DNA of 64,000 bases, from contig NZ_JAHKRN010000033.1 in the NCBI RefSeq assembly GCF_019396385.1, forward strand, positions 1-64,000. Reading direction: 5' to 3'. Positions 10,556 to 13,783 of the stretch are shown in pieces. The notes below the pieces were generated by a model. It was given only the letters and a program-made list of their open reading frames with translations, did no database searches and was not told where the DNA came from. Each line of letters begins with the position of its first letter. Positions within the stretch are counted from its first letter, which is position 1. This DNA is from Nonomuraea harbinensis (lineage in GTDB: Bacteria > Actinomycetota > Actinomycetes > Streptosporangiales > Streptosporangiaceae). The position numbers and the translations under genes are program-made.

Positions 10556-11050
10556 ATGCGGTCGCGCCACGTCATGGTGGCTGCAACGCTCCTTCTCTCC
10601 GCCGCCTGCATGAATGACAGCTCTCCCACTCGGCCACAGCCGACCCAGGCCGCCGTCGATTCCGTCACCACGGCACCGTGCGAGTTCCGGGCCGTCAAGG
10701 GCGAACCGCCATCCTGGGCCCGGACGGGATTCACCCCCGGCGTGGAAATGCATTATGCCTCCAGCAGCCGCGGTGACATGCTCGCCATCCTTTTCGGCTA
10801 TCCGCTTTACAGCCCACCGCTGCCGGACCGGGGCAACAAAATTCTGTGGCGTTCCAGAGCGCCGCTGATTCCGTCCGAGCCGTTGCGCATCGAGGCCCGG
10901 CTGAACGGCGTGGGCGCGCCGACGCGCATCACCGTCGAGGGCGGCCCCGGGCCTTCTGCGGTCGACCTGCCGAGCCCCGGATGCTGGCGCCTGGACCTCG
11001 CGTGGAGCTCTCACACGGACTCCATCGACCTGGAGTTCGTCAGTCGATGA
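10556..11050 (+). CDS. Putative lipoprotein
   Basis: A 164-residue secreted protein: MRSRH, a hydrophobic stretch, and the lipobox LLSAAC with the lipid-accepting Cys near residue 18. The mature part is Pro-rich, with segments such as GFTPGVEMHYASSS, and three Cys in total. No known domain recognised. A GGGGGT tract lies about 8 bases before the ATG. The last 11 bp overlap the convergent end of the 11040-11420 gene. Confidence 0.65.
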   Translation: MRSRHVMVAATLLLSAACMNDSSPTRPQPTQAAVDSVTTAPCEFRAVKGEPPSWARTGFTPGVEMHYASSSRGDMLAILFGYPLYSPPLPDRGNKILWRSRAPLIPSEPLRIEARLNGVGAPTRITVEGGPGPSAVDLPSPGCWRLDLAWSSHTDSIDLEFVSR

Positions 11051-11420
11051 CCGGCTCCCCCGCCGCCGCGTCGAACAGCACCGTCCGCCAGTCCCCGACA
11101 TTGGCGAAAACGGCGCCGCGGGTCCGGACACCGAACCGGCGGGTGACCCGCGCGGCCTTGATGTGCGCCGGGATCCTCCCCATCTGGTAAACCTGGCCGA
11201 GGTTGTGGAAGAGGGTGACGCTCAGCACCCTGCGTGCCGCCACGTCCGTACGGGTCGCGATGAAGACGAGCCCTTCGAGCCGCGGCGTGATGCGCGCCGA
11301 GATCCAGGCGTGCGCGATCCGGAAGGCGAGCAGCCGCCACAGCCCGCCACAGTCGAACCTGGTCACGACGACGACGCCACCGTCTGGATCCGGGGCACAG
11401 CGCCCGGCGGCGGCGGCCAC
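11040..11420 (-). CDS. Unknown protein, last gene of the mau-like operon
   Basis: A 126-residue basic, probably soluble or peripheral protein with a run ARITPRLEGLVFIATRTDVAA and several Arg-rich stretches. The GTG at 11420 overlaps the stop of the MauF-like gene as TAGTG, the usual sign of translational coupling; a second GTG at 11366 is an alternative start. I do not recognise a family. Its fixed place at the end of a redox-maturation operon suggests it serves that system. Confidence 0.55.
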   Translation of the reverse strand: MAAAAGRCAPDPDGGVVVVTRFDCGGLWRLLAFRIAHAWISARITPRLEGLVFIATRTDVAARRVLSVTLFHNLGQVYQMGRIPAHIKAARVTRRFGVRTRGAVFANVGDWRTVLFDAAAGEPVID

Positions 11421-12058
11421 TACACGATCTGGAGCAAACCCAGGCATATCAGCACTACTCCGCTCAAGGCCCGTACAGTACGGATGAACACCCGCTCTCC
11501 GCCCAGGAACGCCCGGCCGGGAACGTGGTTGAGTGCCGTCCCGATCACCGTCCCCGCCACCGAGCCGATCACCATCCCGACCAGGAACACCGGTGCCGCC
11601 ATGGGGTTGAGCAGCACCGTGACCACGAGCGCGCCCCAGATGAGCGACGTGGTCTTCTGCGTGGTGAACAGCAGACCGAGGTCGACGCCCCAGAGCACAC
11701 CGCGCCAGCCGGGCCGGAGCGCCCGCGCGTAGTCCTGGGGCACCTGCCGCATCACGTGCGGAGTGCGGTTCAGCACGTCCGCGACGCCCACCCCGACCAG
11801 CAGCGTGCCCGCCGCCACCTCGCGCCACCGGAGCGGGAGCACGCTCCCGAGCCCTTCCGCCACGACGGCGGCCAGCAGCGCGATGACCGTTCCGCCCACC
11901 ACGAGGCCCACGGAGTAGCCCGCGATGAAGCGGCGTGCTGCGCCAGGCGACCGCCTGGACAATGGACCGGCCACGCCGACCATCGAGCGGCCTCAAGGGC
12001 TCCAGTACTGCAGGACGAAGCCGGCCAGGGCCAGTGCCACGATCGCCGGGACGTCCAT
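11420..12058 (-). CDS. MauF/CcdA-like membrane protein with an in-frame UGA at a Cys position
   Basis: Read through one UGA, this frame gives a 212-residue protein with about six membrane helices. It starts with an ATG at 12058 that overlaps the stop of the redoxin gene (TGATG). Codons 1-21 are MDVPAIVALALAGFVLQYWSP, one membrane helix ending Trp-Ser-Pro. Codon 22 (11995-11993) is TGA, then Gly-Arg-Ser-Met and the remaining helices in the same frame. MauF/CcdA-type thiol transporters carry Ser-Pro-Cys at this place, so UGA sits where the functional Cys belongs. Read conventionally, the gene would be a 21-codon peptide plus a separate ORF from the ATG at 11983, without its first helix. Options are selenocysteine, a one-base nonsense change (UGC to UGA), or a sequence error. 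Confidence 0.6.
11943..11992 (-). promoter_or_regulatory. Hairpins just after the in-frame UGA (possible SECIS)
   Basis: In the mRNA sense, bases +1 to +24 after the UGA can form a stem GGCCGCUCG with loop AUGGU. Bases +35 to +50 form a perfect CCAGGC-GGUC-GCCUGG hairpin. The GGUC loop resembles the apical loop of the E. coli fdhF SECIS, but it lies about 40 nt from the UGA, slightly beyond the usual bacterial range of about 16-37. In DNA this GC-rich, hairpins are common, so this is suggestive only. Confidence 0.3.
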
Positions 12059-12645
12059 CAGACGAGGTCCTTTCCCGGCGCGACGCTCACGCCGCCCGCT
12101 GCGCCGGAGGGGTCGTCGAGGGAGGCGATCCAGCTCGACAGGGCGTTGAAGGAGCTGAACACCACAGCGGACCGCACGACCCCCTCGGGGGAGAGCGCCA
12201 CCGCCGCCGGGCTCATGCCGACGCCGAGCGCCGACATGCTGAATTGTCCTGAGACGTCCACATAGCCGGGCAGGTCAGCCAGCCCGTACTGCGCCACGAA
12301 CTCCCTGCCCGAGGCGGCCGACGCGCACGACACCACGACGCCGACGAGGTCCACGCCCGAGGAGGCGAAGAAGCCACGCGCCTCGGGAGCCAGTTCCTGG
12401 CACGCCCCGCAGGTCGTACTGAGGACGAGGAGCACGCCCGGCGGCCGGGCGAGCCCGTCGGGGAACTCGATGACCGTCGCGCCGAGCTTGGCGTCGGGCA
12501 GCGGCTGCACGGACTCGGGGCGCCTCGTCCCGCCGCCCGCGGACGACTCGGAGATCCGCGCGTTGAGCTCGCCCAGCATCGCGAAGAGGATCACGACCGC
12601 CAGGCTGAGCAGCACGAGCAGGGTGACCATCAGTGCCGTGATCAT
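12058..12645 (-). CDS. TlpA/MauD-like membrane-anchored redoxin
   Basis: A 195-residue thioredoxin-fold protein with an N-terminal membrane anchor (about residues 3-25) and an extracytoplasmic domain. The active site is LSTTCGACQEL, a Cys-Gly-Ala-Cys motif near residue 80, and a cis-Pro is visible in the GMSPAAV segment. MauD-type proteins form or isomerise disulfides during maturation of the Cys-rich light chain of methylamine dehydrogenase. Its ATG overlaps the MauE-like stop and its own stop overlaps the MauF-like start, so the three should be co-translated. Confidence 0.8.
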   Translation of the reverse strand: MITALMVTLLVLLSLAVVILFAMLGELNARISESSAGGGTRRPESVQPLPDAKLGATVIEFPDGLARPPGVLLVLSTTCGACQELAPEARGFFASSGVDLVGVVVSCASAASGREFVAQYGLADLPGYVDVSGQFSMSALGVGMSPAAVALSPEGVVRSAVVFSSFNALSSWIASLDDPSGAAGGVSVAPGKDLV

Positions 12646-13166
12646 GTTTCGGTCCGTTCGCGCGCCATGGTCCCTCTCACGAAGACGATCAGATGGCGGC
12701 GGTTCGCCCAGACGGGGACGAACATCGCCGTGTTCAGCGCGAGCAGCAGGACAGCCTGATCGTAGGCGGTCTCACGCAGCGCCGGCACCAAGGCCCAGGC
12801 CAGGATCGCGGCGCCGGCCAGCACGTTCCAGGCCCCGAACGACCGCGAACCGCTCCGGCCGAAACAGCCGCAGGGCAGTGAGCTCGCCCGCAGCCGTCCC
12901 AGGACCCCCACCACCGCGAATCCCGTTCCCAGCAGGGCCGCCAGCAGCAAGGTGAGCAGGTGCTCCTGGCCGAACACGGCCAGGACGGCCAGCGCGATCT
13001 CCGCGGCGGCGACCGCCCGGACCAGGGCCACAGGCGGCGGTCTCCGTGCGCCGGTCAGCTCACCGAGAGCCTCGGCCAGACCGTGCGGGCTGACCAGCTT
13101 GCCGGCGCCCGAGCTGAGCAGGGCCGCTGCGAGCAGCGCGCTGAGGACGGCAGGCAGCACCCCCAT
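12642..13166 (-). CDS. MauE/DoxX-like redox-associated membrane protein
   Basis: A 174-residue protein with four membrane helices. The Ser-Ser-Leu-Pro-Cys-Gly-Cys-Phe-Gly segment between helices is characteristic of MauE-family proteins, the membrane partner of MauD in moving reducing or oxidising equivalents. Helix 1 has SGAGKL, matching the DoxX/MauE start. It overlaps the redoxin gene by 4 bp. Confidence 0.8.
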   Translation of the reverse strand: MGVLPAVLSALLAAALLSSGAGKLVSPHGLAEALGELTGARRPPPVALVRAVAAAEIALAVLAVFGQEHLLTLLLAALLGTGFAVVGVLGRLRASSLPCGCFGRSGSRSFGAWNVLAGAAILAWALVPALRETAYDQAVLLLALNTAMFVPVWANRRHLIVFVRGTMARERTET

Positions 13167-13172
13167 CGCCGG

Positions 13173-13457
13173 CTACGACCGGAGCCCGGCCGCGGTCAGC
13201 CCTTCGCCCACGGCCACCTTGCGGAGGTGGACCACGTGGTCCTCCCCGTAGACGGCGACGGGCGCGGTCGAGTAGCGGGCGCCCTTCTCCCCGGTCAGCT
13301 GAACGGCCGTATCGACCTTGATCTGCTTGGTACGGAAATGAATGGCGATGACGTCGACAGGCTTCTCGTCCTCGATGCGCGCGCAGACCGCCACGTTCAC
13401 CGAGCCTTCGTTCTCGAAGATGTAGGCGTAGCCGTGATTCGTCGGGGTGATCGACAT
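13173..13457 (-). CDS. Small unknown protein in mau-like operon
   Basis: A 94-residue soluble, beta-rich protein starting MSITPTNHGYAYIFENEG, with GGAGG seven bases upstream. One Cys; no signal peptide, no membrane segment and no recognised family. Six bases separate its stop from the MauE-like start. By position it could be a chaperone or accessory factor for the Cys-rich peptide encoded just upstream. Confidence 0.65.
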   Translation of the reverse strand: MSITPTNHGYAYIFENEGSVNVAVCARIEDEKPVDVIAIHFRTKQIKVDTAVQLTGEKGARYSTAPVAVYGEDHVVHLRKVAVGEGLTAAGLRS

Positions 13458-13486: not shown

Positions 13487-13783
13487 TCAGGGATAGCAGC
13501 TGATGGAGGCCCTTCCGGAGGCCTCACAGCATTGACAGAAGGACGCCCCCGAATAGCAGCCCCAAATGTAGTACGCGTTGTTCGCGCACGTGCTGTAGGG
13601 GAAGGTCGGGCAGTAGACCAGGCGGCAGCACAGGTATTCACAGATGGCCTGTGCGGAAGCGGGCCGCGCCTGAGTGGCGACGGTCGTGGCAGCGGCCAGC
13701 GCGCTGGCGCCCATGGCCCGGGTGAAGAAGCGACGAGTCAACCGGCGGTTGCGCTGCGGGGGCTCATGAACTGCCACGGCCAC
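13487..13783 (-). CDS. Tat-exported Cys-rich MauA-like peptide
   Basis: A 98-residue precursor. The Tat signal has RRLTRRFF, a hydrophobic Ala/Thr-rich core and a likely cleavage after ASAQA. The roughly 50-residue mature part has ten Cys, arranged with CEYLCC, YIWGC and FCQCC. This resembles the core of the methylamine dehydrogenase light chain (CDYW, SWVASC, RDCCG) but is much shorter. The Trp that becomes part of the tryptophan tryptophylquinone cofactor is Leu here, and the C-terminal partner is absent, so TTQ cannot form. A second in-frame GTG at 13777 has the better spacing to GGAG. It is the first gene of the operon and presumably the substrate of the redox proteins that follow. No dehydrogenase heavy chain is nearby. 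Confidence 0.65.
   Translation of the reverse strand: MAVAVHEPPQRNRRLTRRFFTRAMGASALAAATTVATQARPASAQAICEYLCCRLVYCPTFPYSTCANNAYYIWGCYSGASFCQCCEASGRASISCYP

Follow-up and report, generated by a model that had tools for sequence, protein, structure and literature searches.

Introduction

Membrane proteins of the CcdA/DsbD type carry two redox cysteines, placed in two membrane helices. MauE and MauD are described as necessary for the maturation of methylamine dehydrogenase, and MauE has been linked, speculatively, to disulfides (PMC7794033). For selenoproteins, Table 1 of a review of May 2026 catalogues 119 families (PMC13188914), among them TsoB, a rhodanese/DsbD fusion-like selenoprotein (NF045694). 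The window analysed here is a stretch of 64,000 nucleotides from Nonomuraea harbinensis (contig NZ_JAHKRN010000033.1, positions 1 to 64,000). An original prediction, made from the letters of this stretch, had described a MauF/CcdA-like gene with an in-frame UGA at the expected Cys of a Ser-Pro-Cys-Gly motif and had proposed it as a candidate selenoprotein gene. In this study, we report on this gene, its relatives, the selenocysteine (Sec) machinery of the genomes that carry it, and its neighbours.

Materials and methods

Sites homologous to the UGA were tallied as follows. The TGA sites comprised 29 from the first locus set, six further ones (L119, L121-L125), 16 distinct type C sites, and three in fragments (L043, L068, and L132). 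The TGC sites comprised three from the first locus set and two further ones (L118 and L120). Type C sites were counted by distinct 75-nt sequence; L070, L136, and L137 were repeats of others. L020 and L089 represent one genome and were counted once, and L126 completes a gene that is fragmented in G757. In three more matches the site was unreadable: L045, L141, and G203:C12 (L156).

A bacterial SECIS (bSECIS) model was coded from the parts of PMC13188914 that describe it: a loop of 3-9 nt with G followed by G/U, located 16-37 nt from the UGA, and a dG of -7.5 or lower. The model was applied to 49 of the 54 TGA sites; L043, L068, L132, L121, and L122 were left out.

Results

The UGA gene of the window

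The features of the locus are listed in Table 1. On the minus strand, the frame starts with the ATG at 12058-12056, runs through 21 codons ending in Trp-Ser-Pro, crosses the TGA at 11995-11993, continues with Gly-Arg-Ser-Met, and ends with the TAG at 11422-11420. Reading the window sequence thus bore out what had been claimed for the gene itself, namely a frame that stays open before and after the UGA, with these flanking residues. The claimed couplings were found as well: one base is common to the ATG and the stop codon of the redoxin gene (TGATG), and the downstream open reading frame (ORF) overlaps the end of the UGA gene by 28 nt. A 135-aa ORF occupies the equivalent place in L089. The type A gene is present as a single copy in its own genome (type A query, E 0.001; 9.39 Mb in 140 contigs).

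Table 1. Features of the UGA gene locus in the window.
Feature	Position	Strand	Remarks
Downstream ORF	11040..11447	minus	ATG at 11447, end at 11040
Sec-containing membrane protein gene (predicted)	11420..12058	minus	212 residues with the UGA read through; ATG 12058 to TAG 11420
GGUC-loop hairpin of the original prediction	11943..11958	minus	
SECIS-like structure	11949..11992	minus	44 nt with dG -24.2, directly 3' of the UGA; one U bulged; GUG in the apical loop, at 18 nt from the UGA
Core hairpin within the SECIS-like structure	11985-11960	minus	dG -13.1
UGA, codon 22, putatively read as Sec	11993..11995	minus	TGA or Cys kept in relatives
MauD-like redoxin	12058..12645	minus	membrane anchor and CGAC motif; TIGR02661 22.1 bits, well below the cut-off of 188.6; PF08534 14.2, under cut-off
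MauE family membrane protein	12642..13166	minus	CGC motif; PF07291 59.6 bits, cut-off 27
Small conserved protein	13173..13457	minus	cluster c4, 8 members in 7 loci or gene copies; no Pfam/NCBIfam match
Cys-rich protein, candidate client	13487..13783	minus	10 Cys in 98 aa, twin-arginine-like start; cluster c1, 18 members; no Pfam match

In types A and B, frame 0 had the lowest pN/pS of the three frames, both before and after the UGA. The frame-0 values were 0.24 before and 0.31 after the UGA in type B, and 0.79 and 0.49, respectively, in type A. Because a TGA with an intact frame on either side recurs in relatives down to approximately 22-25 % identity, the UGA is more than a chance event; it is real and widely conserved.

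TGA or Cys at the homologous site

A search of 297 genomes of the family gave 16 matches from 15 genomes, and all 16, together with L020, had TGA at the site and a helix encoded upstream of it. N. thailandensis keeps the same TGA at a protein identity of 90 %. Wider searches, whose samples overlap, matched 34 of 345 genomes of the order, 14 of 241 of the class, and 10 of 396 of the phylum. Altogether, 59 sites were readable, of which 54 had TGA (three in contig-end fragments) and five had TGC (Cys); none of the 59 had TAA, TAG, or another residue. The column that the original prediction had proposed to align in homologs therefore holds TGA or Cys and nothing else. That homologs might begin at the ATG at 11983 and never have the first helix had been named as a possible objection; the relatives keep both the first helix and the TGA.

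Four or more subfamilies could be distinguished by motif (SPUGRSM, SFUGLSF, GS[TV]USxNSA, and SPUGESML). In type D, TWSPxGxSML and PxGER are common to the TGA and TGC forms, and one TGA form (G847) and two TGC forms (G750 and G822) all fall within family f89. L108 (TGA) and L110 (TGC) each lie directly behind homologous Cys-rich ORFs. Among 139 database proteins, a single one, P0141, carries a motif of the Ser-Pro-Cys-Gly type within its 60 N-terminal residues, with Cys at that place. In the Cys relatives L110 and L111, approximately 450 codons follow the site, twice the usual length, and a further domain seems to be fused.

Some matches were reassigned. L069-L074 had been considered MauE cross-hits; reading upstream gave TGA at the same place, and they were placed in type C. 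L045 (G604) had been considered spurious and proved to be a type C-like fragment without the N-terminal part. L141 (G252:C26), a type C relative in which the N-terminal motif is absent in frame, adjoins a tRNA-SeC gene and may be a degraded copy.

Hairpins downstream of the UGA

The strict bSECIS model was passed by 40 of the 49 TGA sites and failed by nine, against 8.7 passes expected from synonymous shuffles. Pass counts were 23/29 in the first locus set (expected: 5.7 by synonymous shuffling, 2.8 by sampling other windows within these genes), 15/16 in type C (2.3 expected), and 2/4 in L151-L154 (0.7 expected). No Cys site passed (0/5; 0/3 and 0/2 in the two sets). Site by site, the synonymous shuffles were weak, with p below 0.05 at 8 of 29 TGA sites. 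The loops seen were GGUCG, GGUCU, GUC, GUU, GUG, GGU, GGG, and CGUGCA. On the 3' side of the type B hairpin, AGA is kept in 9/9, although AGA accounts for 2.3 % of 10,330 Arg codons.

At the window locus, the strict unbulged model gave a dG of -5.4 and failed; the locus passes only with a one-base bulge, a bulged U being needed there and at L089. L103 scored -7.3, L105 requires a bulged stem to pass, and L100 and L102 had no SECIS-like hairpin with bulged stems also allowed. When the whole region was folded at the window, stability was not above that of shuffles (z -0.48). The GGUC-loop hairpin noted originally does exist, but it is probably not the SECIS core, its loop lying 40 nt from the UGA versus the usual 16-37 nt. 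The structure that starts right after the UGA is the better SECIS candidate.

Sec machinery and its linkage to the UGA genes

The genome of N. harbinensis has two SelA, two SelB, SelD, and tRNA-SeC, so that the search for selA, selB, selC, and selD suggested with the original prediction found all four, both SelB matches being below the NCBIfam curated cut-off in the six-frame search. C78 and C86 each hold SelA and an adjacent SelB; tRNA-SeC is located at C86:193039, and SelD in C86. The C78 pair (L113) accompanies a formate dehydrogenase, and the C86 pair (L112) accompanies tRNA-SeC, SelD, and a type C gene. The formate dehydrogenase (NF041513, 1483.8 bits) reads ENQARI*HSS with TGA at the asterisk, followed by a GGUCU-loop hairpin (GUCCCC-GGUCU-GGGGAC); this Sec-type enzyme is an internal control for Sec decoding in this genome. 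The type C gene (C86:195182-195676, minus; L135, L112) is a second UGA gene of the superfamily, with the motif SGSV*SLNSA. It lies approximately 2 kb from tRNA-SeC, and its hairpin passes the strict model (dG -10.3).

In the order, a tRNA-Sec match (E 1e-7) was found in 24/24 genomes with type A/B genes versus 237/345 overall, and SelA in 23/24 versus 213/345 (Fisher 8e-5 and 1e-4, respectively, uncorrected for kinship). All ten genomes with only type C had a tRNA-Sec match at E 1e-7. SelA was present in 33 of the 34 order genomes with type A/B or only type C. The exception, G116 (L091; a draft, 92 % complete), has the TGA gene, but its tRNA-Sec match is weak and SelA was not matched. Outside the order, the five TGA genomes tested (G407, G333, G410, G413, and G297) all had SelA and a tRNA-SeC with anticodon TCA. 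The three Cys genomes tested (those of L109-L111, out of five) had neither SelA nor tRNA-SeC; the best tRNA-Sec match was a tRNA-Ser in two scanned, and the third match was under the cut-off. Close UGC relatives combined with a genome lacking sel genes had been named as grounds against a selenoprotein; here the own genome has the sel genes, and the tested UGC relatives sit in genomes that gave neither SelA nor tRNA-SeC.

Several genes of types B, C, and D adjoin SelB, SelD, SelA, or tRNA-SeC. In L090, selA and tRNA-SeC are on one strand, and after them come selD, selB, mauE, the mauD-like gene, the Cys-rich gene, and the UGA gene on the opposite strand. tRNA-SeC lies within the stretch of 7/29 first loci (L090, L092, L093, L095, L096, L097, and L103), of 7/15 type C loci (L112, L136-L148, and L155; one of the seven is the degraded L141), and of 0/6 further TGA loci (L151-L154, L157, and L158), some stretches having been cut wider because a nearby tRNA was already known. 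None was found in the stretches examined around type A loci, the window's included. In two genomes, a UGA gene has two tRNA-SeC genes a few kb away at most: L093 (4956-5049 and 6196-6290) and L103 (4888-4982 and 10065-10160).

Predicted fold and kinship with CcdA/DsbD

The AlphaFold2 model, built with 107 sequences, had a pLDDT of 90.4 and a pTM of 0.84. It predicts a break in the first helix at residues 19-20, immediately ahead of Sec22, and a second break at 130-138, with T132 and T133. The position of Sec22, after Ser-Pro at the first-helix break, presumably corresponds to that of the first redox Cys in CcdA/DsbD. In the A4 alignment (33 rows), the invariant columns were C/U22, G23, S25, R104, Q105, G124, G128, and T133; a second conserved redox Cys is absent from these rows, where the second break carries Thr.

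The top PDB match of the model in Foldseek was CcdA (5vkv, E 0.097, prob 0.75). The VIA-align fold search gave mixed transporter rows, with no CcdA among the best 50, and profile searches of solved structures gave chance hits only. The window protein had no match to the PF02683 or PF13386 profiles at E 1. Three of the 33 A4 members matched DsbD_TM under the cut-off (best 1.3e-5); L106 reached 25.0 bits against a cut-off of 27.1 over residues 4-176, Sec included. L151 passed DsbD_2 (26.2 bits, cut-off 24.9) over residues 45-186, after its Sec. Accordingly, of the MauF/CcdA-like assignment, the placement of the UGA at the Cys column stands, and the CcdA/DsbD profile holds for divergent relatives only and not for the window protein.

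Gene neighbourhood

MauE and a MauD-like redoxin stand beside most of the type A, B, and D genes examined, and MauE beside some type C genes. The sel genes are frequent neighbours of type C genes, whose surroundings yielded no Cys-rich partner. The Cys-rich neighbour in the window is probably Tat-exported. The neighbours examined included no gene recognized as methylamine dehydrogenase. The possibility that the Cys-rich protein is the light chain of that enzyme (TIGR02659) was considered and rejected, as there was no whole-length match: the ORF of L108 reached 25.5 of 196.85 bits over residues 11-55 only, that of L110 14.6, and those of L090, L103, and the window had no match. A small protein (approximately 90-100 aa, no family match) like that at 13173-13457 also occurs near L085, L086, L087, L091, and L116, and accompanies type A loci.

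Discussion

We propose, with a probability of about 0.92, that the window gene encodes a selenoprotein whose UGA codon 22 is read as Sec by the SelA, SelB, SelC, and SelD of its own genome. This reading rests on the conserved UGA, the Sec/Cys exchange, the machinery, the bSECIS counts, the conservation of the frame, and the linkage to sel genes. The relatives in many other actinobacteria appear to be Sec-containing as well.

Regarding function, Sec22 is predicted to be the single redox chalcogen in the membrane, located after the first-helix break in Ser-Pro-Sec-Gly. It could exchange electrons with the CGAC motif of the neighbouring MauD-like redoxin, and perhaps also with the CGC motif of MauE, in a relay that would make or correct the disulfides of the co-encoded exported Cys-rich protein. 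We give even chances to such a thiol-relay function, in which the redox activity, the partners, the client, and the direction of electron flow are inferred from the gene neighbourhood and from the role of MauE and MauD described in PMC7794033. A Sec protein that is no thiol relay is a possibility to be taken seriously, if a somewhat doubtful one: a membrane partner of transporter or chaperone-like type, in which selenium, sulfur, or a metal is bound by Sec, would agree with the single conserved chalcogen residue, a weak profile match to SfLAP, middling fold matches to unrelated transporters, and the type C genes, which often keep company with sel genes and showed no Cys-rich partner. The regular presence of MauE and the MauD-like redoxin, the replacement of Sec by Cys in relatives, and the DsbD-type profile matches of L106, L108, and L151 speak against it.

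It is very improbable that the UGA actually terminates a short, coupled leader peptide and that translation restarts at the ATG at 11983. Type A has this ATG three codons past the UGA, and type A database entries begin at the Met there (MxGVAGP). However, an ATG right behind the TGA is absent from types B and C, which are nevertheless conserved through the site, and the Cys relatives are open through it with an unchanged motif. The leader would, moreover, have to end in TGA at 54/54 non-Cys sites, when TGA makes up 253/398 of the stops among the ORFs picked in these loci. Stop usage alone is thus insufficient to explain a TGA at every site, although the sites share ancestry. A decaying gene with a fresh nonsense mutation, or with a sequencing error, for which the degraded appearance of L141 might be quoted, is virtually discounted by the same TGA in N. 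thailandensis, in many genera, and in several families, with purifying selection on both sides.

Taking the UGA as a Sec codon, we assign the gene to a new family of selenoproteins, namely a Sec version of the CcdA/DsbD-like membrane proteins. Its absence from print rests on full-text searches and on Table 1 of PMC13188914: nothing like the UGA gene family stands among the 119 families of that table, the terms searched in PMC9312934 gave no match, and the full-text searches returned no paper on a selenoprotein with MauF and, among the titles listed, none on this family. None of the 33 A4 members matched the NCBIfam (June 2026) selenoprotein models at E 0.01.

The family would add a broad selenoprotein superfamily to the actinobacteria, in which case formate dehydrogenase would not be the only reason for these bacteria to retain the Sec machinery and even to hold it in duplicate. 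Sec would then sit in a thiol-relay protein embedded in the membrane, and the family, in the genomes sampled, has Sec far more often than Cys (54/59 readable sites); many database proteins would be missing the first helix together with the active-site residue. Pairs of Sec and Cys forms allow a direct test of what is gained by Sec. More broadly, the odds seem balanced that the loci represent an actinobacterial selenium-dependent system for the maturation of exported Cys-rich proteins. It would consist of a Sec CcdA-like relay, MauE, and a MauD-like redoxin, carried in several lineages with its own selD, selB, selA, and tRNA-SeC. Its at least four subfamilies, mostly Sec, would be unannotated or cut short, and they would rank among the commoner selenoproteins of actinobacteria.

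Compared with known systems, the window family differs from the CcdA/DsbD transmembrane domain (PF02683 and PF13386) in having Sec instead of Cys and no conserved second redox Cys; it is alike in size, in its predicted polytopic membrane fold, and in the putative redox residue after Ser-Pro at the first-helix break. TsoB is likewise a catalogued selenoprotein named after DsbD, but it has two Sec (UxxxxU) and a rhodanese part, and its model is among the NCBIfam selenoprotein models that the A4 members do not match. For MauF, no match or model came up in the Pfam or NCBIfam searches. Unlike the MauE/MauD/MauF set, the locus has no methylamine dehydrogenase recognized among the neighbours examined, no light chain by profile in its Cys-rich protein, and no MauF profile match; like that set, it joins MauE (PF07291) and a weakly MauD-like redoxin to a Cys-rich protein that is probably exported.
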